From: Bacteroidales bacterium
GTDB taxonomy: Bacteria > Bacteroidota > Bacteroidia > Bacteroidales > Bacteroidaceae
Length of the DNA stretch: 54,674 nucleotides
Assembly (NCBI GenBank): GCA_029227175.1
Contig: JAQXZK010000072.1
Location: 1 to 54,674, forward strand
Direction: 5' to 3'
Of the stretch, positions 14,996 through 54,674 are shown one piece after another. The number at the start of each line of letters is the position of its first letter. Within the stretch, counting starts at the first letter, position 1. The position numbers were made by a program, and so were the translations under genes. Below the pieces are notes generated by a model. It made no database searches, was not told where the DNA came from, and was given only the letters and a program-made list of their open reading frames with translations.

Positions 14996-15060
14996 TGAAC
15001 TGATTTTGTTATTTGATTGTAATTCTTCTCTGCAATCGCGGCTGCAACAAATAGAGTTCA
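14996..15060 (+). promoter_or_regulatory. Structured RNA leader before rpsD
   Basis: The 108-bp gap between rpsK and rpsD folds on paper into a long hairpin. TGAACT (14996-15001) pairs with AGTTCA (15055-15060); after a symmetric 3x3 internal loop, TTTGTT (15005-15010) pairs with AACAAA (15046-15051); GATTG (15015-15019) pairs with CAATC (15033-15037) inside. S4 is a known autogenous regulator in other bacteria, so this is a candidate S4 binding site. This is inference; no folding run was made. Confidence 0.4.
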
Positions 15061-24226: not shown

Positions 24227-26659
24227 ATGAAGGTATTAAAGTTTGGAGGATCATCTGTTGGTTCTGTCAAAAGTATTTTGAGTGTAAAGCAGATTGTGGA
24301 GTCGGTTGACGAACCTTGCATTGTCGTTGTGTCGGCTCTTGGTGGAGTTACTGACCAGTTGATAAAAACATCTCAGATGGCGGCTGACGGTAATATTGAG
24401 TACGAAAACGAATTTCGTCAGATAGTAAGCCGACACACCGAAATGATTCGTACTGTTATTTCTGGGGAGGAAATTCAATCGATGTTACTCAGACAAGTCA
24501 ACGAACTGCTTAATGAACTTAAGGGCATTTTGCAGGGCTTATATCTAATCAAAGACCTCTCTCCCAAGACTGCAAATGCCATCGTAAGTTATGGCGAAAG
24601 GCTTTCAAGCCTCATCGCGGCTTATCTGACAGGTGCAGAATGGTACGACTCTCGCAAGTTCATCAAGACCGAAAGGAAGTTGGGAAAACATCTTCTTGAT
24701 ACTGAATTGACTAATCAGCTTGTACGCGAAACATTCAAGCAGTTGCCTCATCGTGCTTTGGTGCCAGGTTTTATTTCTACTGACAAAAATACCGGTGAGG
24801 TTACCAATCTAGGTCGAGGTGGCTCTGACTATACAGCGGCCATTATTGCAGCGGCTTTGGATGCAGATGTTTTGGAGATTTGGACAGATGTGGATGGCTT
24901 TATGACTGCTGACCCTCGTGTCATTACCTCTGCTTATGTCATCAATGAATTGAGTTATGTTGAGGCTACTGAGCTTTGTAATTTTGGTGCAAAGGTTGTG
25001 TATCCGCCAACAATCTATCCAGTATGCCACAAGAATATACCCATCTTAATCAAGAATACATTCAACCCGAGTGCTCCGGGTACCATTATTAAGAGTGAGG
25101 TCAAGTCCGAGAGCGGTAAGGCGATTCGAGGTATTTCTTCTATCAACGATACATCGCTTATCACAGTTCAGGGTCTTGGTATGGTAGGTGTGATAGGTGT
25201 AAACCGCCGTATCTTTACTGCTTTGGCTGATAATGGCATCAGCGTATTTCTTGTTTCTCAGGCTTCTTCCGAAAATTCAACCTCTATAGGTGTTCGCAAT
25301 TCCGATGCTGCTCTTGCCTGCAAGGTACTTAATGAGACGTTCGCCAAAGAGATTGAGATGGGCGAGATATCTCCGATAACGGCTGAGACTGATCTGGCAA
25401 CAGTTGCCATTGTGGGCGAGAACATGAAGCACACTCCAGGTATTGCCGGTAAGTTGTTTGGGACGCTTGGGCGTAATGGTATCAGCGTGATTGCCTGTGC
25501 TCAGGGAGCTTCTGAGACAAACATCTCATTTGTGGTTGAGAGCAAGTACCTTCGCAAGTCTTTGAACGTTATCCATGACTCGTTCTTTCTTTCAGAATAT
25601 CAAGTACTAAATCTTTTTATCTGTGGTGTAGGAACTGTGGGTGGAAGTCTGGTAGAGCAGATTCACAGCCAGCGTCAGAAATTGATGCAGGAAAATGGTT
25701 TACAGCTTAATGTTGTAGGTATTGCCGATGTGGATAAGGCTATCTTTACGCGTGCCGGCATCGATTTAGGTAATTATCGTCAAATCCTTAAAGAGCAAGG
25801 TATGCCCAGTACACTTGATACGCTCAAGAAAGAGATTATTGGCATGAACATATTCAACTCTGTCTTTGTTGATTGTACGGCAAGTGCCGGTGTGGCATCG
25901 CTATATAAAGACCTTCTTTCTCACAACGTATCTGTGGTTGCTGCTAACAAGATTGCAGCATCTGGCAGGTATGAGGATTATCGAGAGTTGAAGCAGATTG
26001 CTCGCCGCCGTGGTGTCAAATATCTTTTTGAAACGAATGTTGGTGCGGGTCTTCCCATCATCAACACAATTAATGACTTGATTCATAGTGGTGATAAGAT
26101 TCTGAAGATAGAGGCTGTCTTGAGTGGAACGCTGAACTTTATTTTCAATACTATCAGCGCAGATATTCCTTTAAGTAAGACTATTCGCATGGCAAAGGAA
26201 CAGCGTTACAGCGAGCCGGATCCACGTATAGACCTCAGTGGCAAGGATGTTTTGCGTAAGTTGGTCATCTTGGCGCGTGAAGCCGGTTACCGACTTGAAC
26301 AGGAAGACGTTGAAAAGCATCTGTTTGTTCCGGACGAGTTCTTTGAAGGCACGTTGGATGATTTCTGGGCAAAGATTCCTTCGCTGGATGCTGAATTTGA
26401 GTGCCGTCGCAAGGAACTTGAGAAGGAGAACAAACATTGGCGTTTCGTGGCACGCTTTGAAAATGGCAAGGCAAGTATCGGACTTGAGGCTGTTGATGCC
26501 CGTCATCCTTCTTATGGTTTGGAAGGCAGTAACAATATTATTTTGCTTACCACAGAGCGTTATCACGAATATCCTATGGTAATTCAAGGCTATGGGGCAG
26601 GTGCAAGTGTGACGGCAGCCGGTGTGTTCGCCGATATCATGAGCATTGCTAACGTCTGA
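24227..26659 (+). CDS. thrA: Bifunctional aspartokinase / homoserine dehydrogenase
   Basis: The protein catalyses the first step (aspartate phosphorylation) and the third step (aspartate semialdehyde to homoserine) of threonine synthesis. The 810 residues begin with the aspartokinase motif KFGGSSVGS and include GRGGSDYTAA; two ACT regulatory domains lie around residues 310-460 (VQGLGMVGVIGV, VAIVGENMKHTPGIAGKLF). The homoserine dehydrogenase half starts near 465 with the NAD(P) motif FICGVGTVGGSL and has FETNVGAGLPIINT. The fusion and length match E. coli ThrA. It is followed 12 bp later by apgM and then thrC. ACT domains suggest feedback control by threonine. Confidence 0.97.
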   Translation: MKVLKFGGSSVGSVKSILSVKQIVESVDEPCIVVVSALGGVTDQLIKTSQMAADGNIEYENEFRQIVSRHTEMIRTVISGEEIQSMLLRQVNELLNELKGILQGLYLIKDLSPKTANAIVSYGERLSSLIAAYLTGAEWYDSRKFIKTERKLGKHLLDTELTNQLVRETFKQLPHRALVPGFISTDKNTGEVTNLGRGGSDYTAAIIAAALDADVLEIWTDVDGFMTADPRVITSAYVINELSYVEATELCNFGAKVVYPPTIYPVCHKNIPILIKNTFNPSAPGTIIKSEVKSESGKAIRGISSINDTSLITVQGLGMVGVIGVNRRIFTALADNGISVFLVSQASSENSTSIGVRNSDAALACKVLNETFAKEIEMGEISPITAETDLATVAIVGENMKHTPGIAGKLFGTLGRNGISVIACAQGASETNISFVVESKYLRKSLNVIHDSFFLSEYQVLNLFICGVGTVGGSLVEQIHSQRQKLMQENGLQLNVVGIADVDKAIFTRAGIDLGNYRQILKEQGMPSTLDTLKKEIIGMNIFNSVFVDCTASAGVASLYKDLLSHNVSVVAANKIAASGRYEDYRELKQIARRRGVKYLFETNVGAGLPIINTINDLIHSGDKILKIEAVLSGTLNFIFNTISADIPLSKTIRMAKEQRYSEPDPRIDLSGKDVLRKLVILAREAGYRLEQEDVEKHLFVPDEFFEGTLDDFWAKIPSLDAEFECRRKELEKENKHWRFVARFENGKASIGLEAVDARHPSYGLEGSNNIILLTTERYHEYPMVIQGYGAGASVTAAGVFADIMSIANV

Positions 26660-26671
26660 TTCCCAATTTTT

Positions 26672-27916
26672 ATGAAACATATTATTATCCTCGGTGACGG
26701 CATGGCTGACTGGGCCGTTCCTTCGCTTGGAGGCAGGACTTTGCTTCAGGCAGCCCATACCCCATACATGGACTTATTGGCCAAAATGGGTCGCAACGGT
26801 CGTTTGGTCACTGTTGCTCCCGGTTTCCATCCTGGTAGCGAGGTGGCTAACATGAGTGTGATGGGCTACAACCTGCCATTGGTTTACGAGGGACGTGGCC
26901 CATTGGAAGCAGCCAGTATCGGTTATGACCTGCGCTCCGACGAACTGGCGTTGCGATGCAATATTGTTTGTGTACAGGGTGAGATTATAAAGAATCACTC
27001 CTCCGGTCACATTACGACAGAGGATGCCGATAAACTGATTCGTACGTTGCAGCAGAAACTTGGAAACGAACGTGTGAGTTTCTATACCGGTGTCCAGTAT
27101 CGCCATCTGCTTGTCATTCGGGGCGGAAACAAGCACTTGCTTTGTACCCCACCACACGATGTGCCGGGTCAGCCGTTTGCTCCGTTGATGGTGAAGCCTG
27201 ATTTGGAAGGTGAGGCAAAGGATGAACACCGAACAGAATTGACAGCTACGCAGACTGCCGATTTAATCAATGACTTAATCCTTCGTTCTCAGGAGATCCT
27301 TGACAAGCATCCGCTTAACCTTCAACGTGTAGCCGAAGGAAGAGACCCTGCAAATAGTATTTGGCCTTGGGGTGGAGGGTACAGGCCTCAGATGAAGAAG
27401 CTTTCTGAATATTTTCCGCAAATCCGCCGAGGCGCTGTGATTTCTGCTGTTGACCTGATCAATGGCATCGGCTATTATGCAGGTTTGCGTCGCATTTCGG
27501 TAGAGGGAGCGACAGGATTGTATGATACCAATTACGAGAATAAAGCTACGGCAGCTATCAATGCTTTGCGTACCGATGACTTCGTCTATCTGCATGTCGA
27601 AGCCAGCGATGAGGCTGGTCATGAGGGTGATATTTCCCTGAAGATTCGAACGATTGAGAATCTGGATAAGCGTGCCATAGGGCCCATTTATGAGGAAGTT
27701 AAGCAATGGGATGATCCAGTGGCTATTGCGGTCTTGCCTGACCATCCTACGCCTTGTGAGCTTCGCACACATACTGCCGAACCGGTTCCGTTCTTGATGT
27801 GGTGTCCGGGAATGCAGCCTGACGAGGTACAGGTTTTCGACGAAGTGTCTGCCTGCTCCGGTTCTTTGGGCTTGATGAAGGAAGACCAGTTTATCAAAGA
27901 ATTCATGAAATACTAA
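26672..27916 (+). CDS. Archaeal-type phosphoglycerate mutase family protein, probable homoserine kinase
   Basis: The 414-residue protein belongs to the ApgM branch of the alkaline phosphatase superfamily. It shows the metal-binding start IILGDGMADW, the catalytic-Ser segment GSEVANMSVMGY (Ser62), and the late ligands DEAGHEGD and LPDHPTPCELRTH. The operon thrA-X-thrC lacks a GHMP-type thrB, and X sits exactly where homoserine kinase is needed. ApgM homologues in such operons have been proposed to be the missing homoserine kinase. I therefore consider homoserine phosphorylation more likely than glycolytic mutase activity here; the sequence alone does not decide. Confidence 0.85.
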   Translation: MKHIIILGDGMADWAVPSLGGRTLLQAAHTPYMDLLAKMGRNGRLVTVAPGFHPGSEVANMSVMGYNLPLVYEGRGPLEAASIGYDLRSDELALRCNIVCVQGEIIKNHSSGHITTEDADKLIRTLQQKLGNERVSFYTGVQYRHLLVIRGGNKHLLCTPPHDVPGQPFAPLMVKPDLEGEAKDEHRTELTATQTADLINDLILRSQEILDKHPLNLQRVAEGRDPANSIWPWGGGYRPQMKKLSEYFPQIRRGAVISAVDLINGIGYYAGLRRISVEGATGLYDTNYENKATAAINALRTDDFVYLHVEASDEAGHEGDISLKIRTIENLDKRAIGPIYEEVKQWDDPVAIAVLPDHPTPCELRTHTAEPVPFLMWCPGMQPDEVQVFDEVSACSGSLGLMKEDQFIKEFMKY

Positions 27917-51912: not shown

Positions 51913-51942
51913 AAAATAATGCAGAAAAAATTGATAAATGCT

Positions 51943-51971
51943 TTGATATTGCATATTTTTCTTTACTTTTG
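51943..51971 (+). promoter_or_regulatory. Promoter of the aromatic amino acid operon
   Basis: TTG at 51943-51945 and TACTTTTG at 51964-51971 fit the Bacteroidetes -33/-7 consensus with an 18-bp spacer. Transcription would begin near 51978, about 20 nt before the leader peptide. Confidence 0.7.
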
Positions 51972-51999
51972 CAGCGAATAAAGAAAGAACAATGTCCCT

Positions 52000-52083
52000 A
52001 TGACACGATTTTACGCATACTATTTCTTCTTTTACTTTTACTTTAGCCAACAAGTAGAGCGGGAAATCGTATGTGTCAAGTGA
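52000..52083 (+). CDS. Phe/Tyr-rich leader peptide of the pheA operon
   Basis: A 27-residue frame reads MTRFYAYYFFFYFYFSQQ and then VEREIVCVK. Residues 4-15 are Phe or Tyr in 11 of 12 places (6 Phe, 5 Tyr). Such density next to a terminator and pheA is not expected by chance. The frame ends 87 nt before the pheA start, and its end covers segment A of the attenuator. The mix of Phe and Tyr suggests sensing of both charged tRNAs. The start at 52000 follows an overlapping minimal frame ATG-TCC-CTA-TGA at 51992-52003. Confidence 0.88.
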   Translation: MTRFYAYYFFFYFYFSQQVEREIVCVK

Positions 52084-52125
52084 CAGTAGACATGAGATTG
52101 AAAAGAACCTGAAAATAATGATATG

Positions 52126-52159
52126 AAATCCCGCTCCATTGGTAAGCGGGATTTTTTTT
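52126..52159 (+). terminator. Attenuator terminator hairpin
   Basis: A perfect 10-bp stem (AAATCCCGCT at 52126-52135 with 52145-52154) with a 9-nt loop ends in eight T (52152-52159). It lies 11 bp before the pheA start codon, so it can only be a regulated stop. Confidence 0.93.
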
Positions 52160-52170
52160 GATGATAATAT

Positions 52171-53016
52171 ATGAAGAGAAAAGTTGCAATTCAAGGTGCT
52201 GTAGGCTCGTTTCACGACATCGCTGCTCATCAGTTCTTCCCCAATGATGAGATTGAACTTGTTTGTTGTGCTACGTTTGAAGAGGTGTTCTCTGCGCTGA
52301 AGAACGACAGTAAGACCATAGCCTTGTGCGCCATTGAAAATACGATAGCAGGAAGTTTGCTGCACAACTATGAATTGCTCCGCGAGAGCGCTATGCAGGT
52401 GATCGGGGAGTTCAAACTTCGTATCTCGCACTGTATCTGTTGTCTGCCCGACGAAGATTGGGAGGATCTCACGGAAGTCAATTCGCACCCCATTGCTCTG
52501 ATGCAGTGTCGCGAGTTCCTGAACCGACATCCTCAGTTAAAAGTGGTTGAGGCCGAAGACACGGCGTTGAGTGCCGAACTGATTCACAAGAACAACCTGA
52601 AAGGCCATGCTGCCATCTGCTCCCAACATGCAGCGCAACTGAATGGCATGAAAGTACTCGAGTCGGGTATCGAGACCAACAAGCACAATTTCACCCGCTT
52701 CTTGGTTATCGCTGACCCCTGGCAGGCCGATGACCTCCAGAGGCAGTTGCAGGCAGTCCCCAACAAGGCCAGTCTGGTATTTTCGCTCCCGCACGCCGAA
52801 GGAAGCCTCTCACAGGTGTTGTCCATTCTCTCGTTCTATCACATCAATCTGACAAAGATTCAGTCTTTGCCAATTATCGGGCGCGAATGGGAATACCAGT
52901 TCTACGTGGATGTTGTCTTTGACAACCTGCTACGCTACAAGCAGTCAATCACTGCCATTACCCCACTAACCAAGGAATTGAAAATATTAGGCGAATATGC
53001 AGAATCAGGAAAATAA
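52171..53016 (+). CDS. pheA: Prephenate dehydratase (monofunctional, with ACT domain)
   Basis: The enzyme converts prephenate to phenylpyruvate, the committed step to phenylalanine. The 281-residue protein starts KVAIQGAVGSFHDIAAHQFF, has IENTIAGSLLHNYELL and the catalytic-region motif NFTRFLVIADPW around residue 180. An ACT domain (about 200-281) with KASLVFSLPHAEGSLSQVLSIL and INLTKIQSLPI follows, likely binding Phe for feedback inhibition. No chorismate mutase domain is attached; in this phylum that activity is usually fused to DAHP synthase, which follows two genes later. The gene lies directly behind the attenuator and overlaps the aminotransferase gene by 20 bp. Confidence 0.96.
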   Translation: MKRKVAIQGAVGSFHDIAAHQFFPNDEIELVCCATFEEVFSALKNDSKTIALCAIENTIAGSLLHNYELLRESAMQVIGEFKLRISHCICCLPDEDWEDLTEVNSHPIALMQCREFLNRHPQLKVVEAEDTALSAELIHKNNLKGHAAICSQHAAQLNGMKVLESGIETNKHNFTRFLVIADPWQADDLQRQLQAVPNKASLVFSLPHAEGSLSQVLSILSFYHINLTKIQSLPIIGREWEYQFYVDVVFDNLLRYKQSITAITPLTKELKILGEYAESGK

Positions 53017-54184
53017 ACGTATACGGCCGGCTGACAGGCTGGAAAGTGTCAGCGAATACTACTTCTCTCGAAAATTGAAAGAAGTGGCTCGAATGAATGC
53101 CGAAGGACTTGACGTGATAAGCCTTGGCATTGGTAGTCCGGATATGCCTCCATCGGCAGAGACGGTCGACACCCTCTGTCGGGAGGCCCGTAATCCCGGT
53201 GGTCACGGATACATGCCGTATGTCGGCATCCCGGAACTGCGTCAGGCCTTCGCAGCATGGTACAAGCGCTGGTATGACGTCGACCTCGACCCCGCTTCCG
53301 AGATTCAGCCGCTCATAGGTAGCAAAGAGGGTATTCTGCACGTCACGTTAGCCTTCGTGAATCCGGGCGATAAGGTGCTGGTGCCTAATCCCGGTTATCC
53401 TACCTACACGTCGTTGAGCCGCATCCTCGGCGCTGAGGTCGTCTACTACAACCTGCGTGCAGAGAATGGGTGGATGCCTGACTTTGACGAGTTGGAAAGC
53501 ATGGACTTGGACGGTGTCAAGCTGATGTGGACAAACTATCCGAATATGCCGACGGGTGCCAATGCTACGCCAGAATTGTATGAGAAGCTTGTCGCTTTCG
53601 CCAAGCGCAAGGGCATTGTCATCGTCAACGACAACCCTTACAGTTTCATCCTGAACGACCATCCTATCAGCATCCTGAAGGTACCGGGAGCCAAAGACTG
53701 CTGCATCGAGTTCAACTCTATGAGCAAGAGCCACAACATGCCGGGATGGCGTATCGGTATGCTGGCCTCCAATGCGGACTTCGTACAGTGGGTGTTGAAG
53801 GTCAAGAGTAACATTGACAGCGGTATGTTCCGGGCGATGCAGCTTGCTGCGGCCACCGCTCTTTCGTGCGGTGAGGACTGGTACGAGTCGAACAACGCAA
53901 ACTACAGAAGCCGCCGGGTATTGGCCGGGCAGATTATGGATGCCTTAGGCTGCACCTATGATGACAAGCAGGTGGGCATGTTCCTTTGGGGACGCATCCC
54001 CGAGTCGTGTGCTGACGTGGAGGAACTGACCGAGCGTGTACTTCACGAGGCGCGGGTGTTCATCACACCGGGTTTCATCTTCGGTAGTAACGGCAAGCGA
54101 TACATACGCATATCGCTCTGTTGCAAGGATGAGAAACTGGCCCAGGCGTTGCAAAGAATCAAATCATTGAATATTAAACAATAA
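52997..54184 (+). CDS. Class I/II aminotransferase, probably aromatic
   Basis: This PLP-dependent enzyme of 395 residues lies between prephenate dehydratase and DAHP synthase, so transamination of phenylpyruvate or 4-hydroxyphenylpyruvate is the likely task. Motifs are SLGIGSPDMPPS, VPNPGYPTY, TNYPNMPTGA, VNDNPYSF and the PLP lysine in NSMSKSHNMPGWRIG (Lys244), with FITPGFIFGSNGKRYIRIS near the end. The overall pattern is like LL-diaminopimelate or aspartate-type aminotransferases, so substrate range is not fixed by sequence. The start at 52997 overlaps pheA by 20 bp, suggesting coupling. Confidence 0.9.
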   Translation: MQNQENKRIRPADRLESVSEYYFSRKLKEVARMNAEGLDVISLGIGSPDMPPSAETVDTLCREARNPGGHGYMPYVGIPELRQAFAAWYKRWYDVDLDPASEIQPLIGSKEGILHVTLAFVNPGDKVLVPNPGYPTYTSLSRILGAEVVYYNLRAENGWMPDFDELESMDLDGVKLMWTNYPNMPTGANATPELYEKLVAFAKRKGIVIVNDNPYSFILNDHPISILKVPGAKDCCIEFNSMSKSHNMPGWRIGMLASNADFVQWVLKVKSNIDSGMFRAMQLAAATALSCGEDWYESNNANYRSRRVLAGQIMDALGCTYDDKQVGMFLWGRIPESCADVEELTERVLHEARVFITPGFIFGSNGKRYIRISLCCKDEKLAQALQRIKSLNIKQ

Positions 54185-54199
54185 AAATAGCATCATAAT

Positions 54200-54674
54200 A
54201 TGGACATTGAATTAAAACCATTGAACCTCCCGGGTGAAGGCGAAAGACCTTTGGTCATCGCCGGCCCTTGCAGTGCAGAAACAGAAGACCAAGTGATGAG
54301 TGCAGCACGTGCTCTTTCAAAGAATGGCATTAAGATTTTCCGTGCCGGAATCTGGAAGCCCCGTACGAAACCGGGTGGCTTTGAGGGAATCGGTGTTGAA
54401 GGTCTTGCCTGGATGAAAGCTGTCAAGCAGGAAACCGGTATGCTTGTAGCTACCGAGGTGGCTACGGCCAAACATGTATACGAGGCATTGAAGGCCGGCA
54501 TAGACGTGCTGTGGATTGGAGCACGTACCACTGCCAACCCGTTTGCCGTACAGGAAATTGCCGACGCGTTGAAGGGTGTTGACGTGCCCGTGCTCATCAA
54601 GAACCCGGTGAACCCCGACCTGGAGTTGTGGATTGGTGCCTTGCTGCGCATCAACGGTGCCGGCCTGCAACGTA
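54200..54674 (+). CDS. 3-deoxy-7-phosphoheptulonate synthase, N-terminal part (3' end outside window)
   Basis: DAHP synthase makes the first intermediate of the shikimate pathway from PEP and erythrose 4-phosphate. About 158 residues are visible from ATG 54200: PLVIAGPCSAETEDQV, then FRAGIWKPRTKPGGFEG and WIGARTTANPFAVQEIA and VLIKNPVNPDLELW. These are the type I-beta/KDO8P-like DAHP synthase motifs. In Bacteroidetes this gene usually carries a C-terminal chorismate mutase domain, which would lie beyond the window. It follows the aminotransferase by 15 bp and should be under the same attenuator. Confidence 0.94.
   Translation, partial: MDIELKPLNLPGEGERPLVIAGPCSAETEDQVMSAARALSKNGIKIFRAGIWKPRTKPGGFEGIGVEGLAWMKAVKQETGMLVATEVATAKHVYEALKAGIDVLWIGARTTANPFAVQEIADALKGVDVPVLIKNPVNPDLELWIGALLRINGAGLQR

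Follow-up and report, generated by a model that had tools for sequence, protein, structure and literature searches.

A predicted Phe/Tyr leader-peptide attenuator upstream of the pheA operon in Bacteroides and its relatives

The pheL-pheA attenuator of Escherichia coli combines a Phe-rich leader peptide, with Phe codons only, and overlapping antiterminator and terminator structures. Attenuation in bacteria is said to be treated by Lopatovskaya et al. in 2010, in a work that may cover the phylum considered here. According to the passages of a 2010 paper that deal with their distribution, leader-peptide systems had been shown only in Proteobacteria and Actinobacteria, ermC apart, and Firmicutes were added there (PMC2965389). 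In the same year, Bacteroid-trp appeared in a list of motifs as a Bacteroidetes motif (PMC2864571); it is the Rfam family RF01692, "Bacteroidete tryptophan peptide leader RNA". Furthermore, some 5' UTRs of Bacteroides thetaiotaomicron are described as carrying ORFs reminiscent of leader peptides (PMC7366714, 2020), and strong clues to attenuation 5' of amino-acid operons are described for Flavobacterium psychrophilum, where the pheA and hisG elements are conserved across genera of the Flavobacteriaceae (PMC9723704, 2021).

Here we describe a leader located upstream of pheA in a stretch of 54,674 nucleotides (the whole of which we call the window), which very probably attenuates transcription by way of the ribosome, sensing charged tRNA-Phe and charged tRNA-Tyr jointly. 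Its features are the following:

51942..51971, + strand: promoter of the Bacteroides -33/-7 type, with TTTG at 51942-51945, 18 nt, and TACTTTTG at 51964-51971
52000..52083, + strand: leader peptide ORF from the ATG at 52000 to the TGA at 52083, 27 codons, MTRFYAYYFFFYFYFSQQVEREIVCVK, the frame being kept in relatives
52009..52044, + strand: sensing codons 4-15, with 6 Phe and 5 Tyr among the 12
52013..52037, + strand: segment 1, the codon region, which pairs with 52052-52076 in a protector hairpin (fold, -19.8 kcal/mol)
52057..52072, + strand: segment A, made of 52057-52064 GAGCGGGA and 52067-52072 TCGTAT
52121..52136, + strand: segment B, made of 52129-52136 TCCCGCTC and 52121-52126 ATATGA, the latter an antiterminator extension
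52126..52159, + strand: intrinsic terminator of 10 bp, 52126-52135 AAATCCCGCT with 52145-52154 AGCGGGATTT (segment C), and T8 at 52152-52159
52171..53016, + strand: pheA, prephenate dehydratase (PF00800, E 7e-55; best NCBIfam match 189.5 bits, short of the cut-off of 219)
52997..54184, + strand: putative class I/II aminotransferase (PF00155), with a 20-nt overlap with pheA; NCBIfam below cut-off among the 25 matches listed
54200..54673, + strand: DAHP synthase (PF00793), cut by the contig end

The coordinates that a sequence-only reading of this DNA had given for the ORF, A, B, the terminator, the T8 and the start of pheA were all reproduced by direct reading, and so was its 27-codon frame with 11 Phe/Tyr among residues 4-15. 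Among the 67,742 stop-free 12-codon windows of the six frames, at least 8 Phe/Tyr per 12 codons were found only in overlapping windows inside the leader ORF. Segments A and B pair over 8 bp (52057-52064 with 52129-52136), and this part of B is common to the antiterminator and the terminator, its last base (52136) being in the antiterminator alone. Both pairings had been proposed before and stand, although that reading had overlooked two further elements: an extra antiterminator helix of 6 bp, 52067-52072 with 52121-52126, across a 2x2 AA/AA loop, the extension of A being based on the fold of the window's own leader, and the protector hairpin, formed by the Phe/Tyr codons with the A region. In isolation, the energies were -20.9 kcal/mol for A to B, -13.9 for B:C and -19.8 for the protector. 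The leader (51978-52170) folded with a z of -3.04 and none of 200 shuffles was equally stable. The T tract is separated from the pheA ATG (52171) by 11 nt (52160-52170). A terminator scan with a promoter/terminator prediction tool found none at the leader, the likely reason being that it is limited to loops of 3-8 and the loop here is of 9. The locus thus shows the marks of an attenuator: mutually exclusive antiterminator and terminator with a common strand (B, with coupled changes), an intrinsic terminator 5' of the first structural gene, and a short ORF whose codon run (11/12 Phe/Tyr) matches the product of the pheA operon.

This locus shares with E. coli pheL-pheA the Phe-rich leader, the overlapping antiterminator and terminator and the first enzyme, but it reads Tyr as well as Phe (and also Trp in 10 of the 45 wider leaders described below, in or next to the aromatic run) and precedes an operon of several genes. 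RF01692 belongs to the same phylum, is cis-regulatory and has a peptide in which the regulated amino acid is abundant, whereas its codons are for Trp, its genes are trp genes and its model has no match at the pheA leader. The pheA and hisG 5' elements of F. psychrophilum are similar in their clues to leader-peptide attenuation and in having no Rfam hits; the pheA element is likened here by description, codons and pairing not being given in the passages that describe it (PMC9723704). Leader-peptide attenuation in Bacteroidetes had been put forward as a largely unstudied subject, and this has to be narrowed, since predicted leader attenuators were already known in the phylum, as RF01692 and the F. 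psychrophilum elements illustrate; what stands is that we found no description of a Phe/Tyr leader of Bacteroides in the literature searched, mostly open-access main texts. The pheA Phe/Tyr leader is an addition to a known class of attenuators, preceded by these two. As no family of Rfam release 15 reaches its gathering score at the leader, a curated family could be made.

Upstream of the ORF, the promoter was called on the basis of TTTG and TAnnTTTG, which we take to be the Bacteroides -33/-7 consensus. Of 89 distinct upstreams, 87 had TAnnTTTG within 75 nt 5' of the leader ATG, as against 3.7% of mononucleotide shuffles, and 73 also had TTTG 16-22 nt upstream of it. Transcription would begin near 51978, and the conservation of the frame in relatives suggests that the leader is translated. 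To our knowledge, the phylum is mostly without Shine-Dalgarno initiation. In the window, an ORF of three codons at 51992-52003 (ATGTCCCTATGA) has a stop that overlaps the start codon of the leader.

When Phe and Tyr are plentiful, the ribosome would clear the aromatic codons and reach and cover A, leaving B free to pair with C, so that RNA polymerase would halt at the T tract 5' of pheA. When either Phe or Tyr is short, which we infer to be sufficient, the ribosome would stall on the aromatic run and open the codon:A protector hairpin; the freed A would pair with B once B is transcribed and the terminator would be blocked. The read-through would then allow transcription of pheA, the aminotransferase, the DAHP synthase/chorismate mutase and, with the order taken from a relative, prephenate dehydrogenase. 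In this relative (locus L126, genome G030) the order is pheA, aminotransferase, a full-length DAHP synthase fused to chorismate mutase, a PDH_N protein that is prephenate dehydrogenase-like (E 1.8e-9) and a 708-aa ORF. The names of the operon proteins rest on Pfam because the NCBIfam matches listed stay below cut-off. Both the Phe and the Tyr branches therefore lie downstream of the leader, which accounts for the mixed codons, and the joint sensing of both amino acids suggested beforehand fits this content.

The spacing between the codons and A is consistent with this mechanism. In 81 of 84 leaders A starts 12 nt past the last Phe/Tyr codon. A ribosome stalled anywhere short of the last codons would thus keep clear of A, which becomes covered when the ribosome moves on. 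We explored the switch by folding these 84 leaders (two others, L038 and L081, were not scorable) with the ribosome modelled as 31 blocked nt. In the full leader of the window, placing the A-site at codons 7-12 gave an A:B pairing of 0.52-0.93; with the A-site at any other codon, or with no ribosome at all, the terminator stood at 0.95 or more. With the full terminator at equilibrium, A:B reached at least 0.5 at any aromatic stall in 14 of the 84 leaders only, the other 70 failing to do so. In transcripts ending before C, the mean A:B was 0.94 on aromatic stalls versus 0.48 without a ribosome, and on these stalls it was at least 0.8 in 80 of the 84; the ribosome-free value depends on the transcript ends, being 0.84 or 0.02 in the window, and, since the modelled ribosome blocks A, the model itself produces part of the drop in A:B at later codons. 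Moreover, before B is made, pairing of A with the codon region upstream has a probability of at least 0.5 in 82 of the 84. Because equilibrium folding switches in only 14 leaders, the attenuator model needs co-transcriptional folding, and kinetic folding is likely to explain why the switch appears only before the terminator is completed.

The conservation of the leader was analysed in 30 genus-level pheA loci (that of the window included) and 80 loci titled Bacteroides, Mediterranea or close kin, two sets that overlap, and 3 of these 110 loci (L049, L064 and L089), with less than 150 nt upstream, were set aside. All of the 107 loci with at least 200 nt upstream, corresponding to 90 distinct upstreams with that of the window, have the leader. 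Its Phe/Tyr content is 8-11 of 12 except in L028, the weakest, with 6 of 12; the identical leaders of L003 and L046 start with GTG and L087 has no in-frame ATG. When 86 distinct leaders were aligned, the gaps within the aromatic part were of 3 or 6 columns. The A:B pairs were paired in 99.6% of 673 cells, with double changes at three pairs, and B:C in 95.2% of 840 cells, with double changes at four pairs; all eight A:B pairs, counting G-U, are retained in 81 of the 86 leaders, and in L011 A, B and C are altered together. These genus counts are kept modest by the low variation, and the shuffles ignore relatedness. In L038 and L081, B has been deleted between the leader stop and pheA while A and C are still there, which could mean either that attenuation was lost naturally or that the hairpin was misassembled. 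RNAalifold on the 86 leaders picked A:B and a small hairpin with a covariation term of almost nil (-0.06). The genus being too uniform for covariation, the comparison was widened to the family and the class.

At the family level, a covariance model built from the 86 leaders, with the terminator as its sole structure, gave one match per genome in 95 of 121 genomes (the window's genome and a few sources of the model included), and the best 30 of the 95 were all upstream of pheA and had an aromatic leader. These 30, together with nine family- or order-level loci, gave an alignment of 42 matches, three of them stray and without A, in which 98.1% of 312 A:B cells were paired and 22 were double-change cells. 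The shuffles gave 5.4 (none of 500 as high) and slid alignments 0-2. The first A:B pair alternates between G-C, in 17 sequences, and A-U, in 18; the further pair types of this alignment showed no excess over shuffles (135 of 500 reach the number). A and B thus diverge in a coupled way. The comparison preset by the sequence-only reading, for a loss of the aromatic codons or stems in relatives, was run and revealed codons and stems that are conserved instead.

The same data bear on other explanations. The terminator could have a product that acts in trans, either a stable short RNA from the 5' UTR or a small peptide, with a constitutive premature termination independent of amino acids; a leader peptide with such an action in trans, peTrpL, is on record in another system (PMC7298713). 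We hold this to be highly improbable, as the tail of the peptide tracks the RNA pairing and not the protein, the swap of the first A:B pair changing the residue between Glu and Lys, and as the aromatic content matches the operon. In fact, each of the seven A-region codons is one and the same synonym in 91-99% of the 86 leaders. By comparison, at pheA residues conserved in at least 95% of sequences the mean codon share was 0.54 for V, 0.57 for R, 0.71 for E and 0.73 for both F and C, with single codons reaching 0.99. Such constancy would be expected if the RNA pairing, rather than the peptide, is under selection.

A terminator and an antiterminator alone would also suit a switch governed by an RNA-binding protein, a metabolite or a T-box-like tRNA contact instead of leader translation. 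Such a switch would give no reason for the conservation of the frame or for the matching codons, and it finds no echo in Rfam, which has no family at gathering score on the window's leader and no leader match in six pheA loci (L126, L118, L124, L139, L188 and L150), with a tRNA in L139 as the only hit; we regard it as very unlikely. The least probable of these explanations is that the leader ORF acts in the reinitiation of translation at pheA and not in transcription termination. Leader genes near structural genes have been proposed to aid reinitiation, the distances in Bacteroidetes peaking at 11-14 bp (PMC4833913), but here the leader stop is 87 nt 5' of pheA, with the 10-bp hairpin and T8 in between.

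The class, which we understand in the GTDB sense and presume to be wider than NCBI's Bacteroidia, was sampled with 197 genomes, 56 of them with a pheA match. From these and other loci, 61 upstreams of at least 200 nt were taken (L001, L066, 11 order-level and 48 from the class sample and its follow-up, six further class matches being left out), L119 being excluded as its pheA is cut by the contig end. At least 6 Phe/Tyr/Trp of 10 residues were found in 45 of the 61, as against 7 of 610 shuffled copies, and the same threshold was reached in 3/29 upstreams of hisG, 3/21 of ilvD and 0/19 of trpB. The 16 below it are L134, L136-L138, L142-L144, L147-L149, L152, L191, L193, L197, L205 and L206. When the requirement was instead 5 of 10 together with a hairpin-T site further on, 45 of the 61 passed, and in these leader-plus-terminator loci the A:B score had a mean of 20.0 versus 11.4 in mononucleotide shuffles and 14.3 with the B of other loci. 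None of 30 shuffles matched the score in 34 of the 45; at least one did in L121, L132, L135, L139, L140, L141, L152, L187, L195, L201 and L204. In L151, L196 and L199 the leader is present and the scan caught no terminator. L152 was rejected as leader-bearing, because it passes the leader-plus-terminator criterion by a chance ORF (A at +265), and is treated as having no leader. At least two Phe and at least two Tyr are present in 44 of the 45 wider leaders, and L113 has no Tyr.

Four of the 61 loci (L118, L124, L139 and L195) were found by the scan to have tandem aromatic ORFs upstream of pheA, each with its own terminator, and these are possibly two gates in series. They resemble the tandem attenuators of Salmonella mgtCBR in having two short ORFs per leader, although those respond, in the passages describing them, to two different signals, ATP and proline (PMC3641672), whereas the tandem pheA leaders are two aromatic leaders in series. 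L151 seems to be a fifth case, its second terminator having been spotted by eye only.

Outside the class there were 95 pheA matches, and 23 were examined, 20 chosen across families and the three best-scoring. The 20 (L329-L348) had no aromatic leader, with at most 5 of 10. The other three (L307, L311 and L324), from other classes of the phylum and with PheA 40-43% identical to that of the window, do have one, and on the simplest reading pheA would have been transferred together with its leader. The attenuator had been ascribed to a Bacteroidales operon, which is too narrow as a limit, given that it is found more widely in the class.

The codons of the leader match its own operon and not the three others compared. 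Six Phe/Tyr of 8 residues were found in 40/41 upstreams of pheA, 1/29 of hisG, 1/21 of ilvD and 0/19 of trpB. In relatives, at least 4 His in 8 residues were found 5' of hisG in 25/29 and at least 2 Trp in 8 residues 5' of trpB in 14/19, and the off-diagonal counts in this table were 0-2 except in the Ile/Leu/Val column. This column is noisy (13/41 for pheA and 8/21 for ilvD), so the ilvD leaders, such as ..NLAVLHIIRVVVV.., found in 19/22 loci, rest on inspection. As a genome-wide search pattern, a seven-codon Phe/Tyr run was rejected as unspecific, the control counts being about equally high.

On balance, we favour the view that this is an old, class-wide attenuator in which one peptide reads Phe and Tyr, with Trp in some lineages, and governs the aromatic-synthesis operon, and which has reached other classes along with pheA and been doubled in series in at least four of the genomes sampled; if the His, Trp and Ile/Leu/Val leaders are counted in, ribosome-coupled attenuation would be a general means of control for amino-acid synthesis in the phylum. 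Leader-peptide attenuation requires a ribosome that keeps pace with RNA polymerase. If the leaders work as proposed, important gut bacteria would couple transcription and translation tightly enough for regulation.

Finally, in the window's own genome hisG (L164) is preceded by a leader with a run of His (..NSHHRHHHPND) and trpB (L236) by a Trp leader that matches RF01692 with 55.1 bits, and no leader was seen there before ilvD (L227). At 24227-27916 the window encodes a bifunctional aspartate kinase/homoserine dehydrogenase and a proposed homoserine kinase, with no Thr/Ile-rich leader ORF among the ORFs of at least 20 aa listed before them. The sole Rfam match in the window is an S4-Bacteroidia ribosomal protein leader (RF03139, 39 bits) at 15015-15044.
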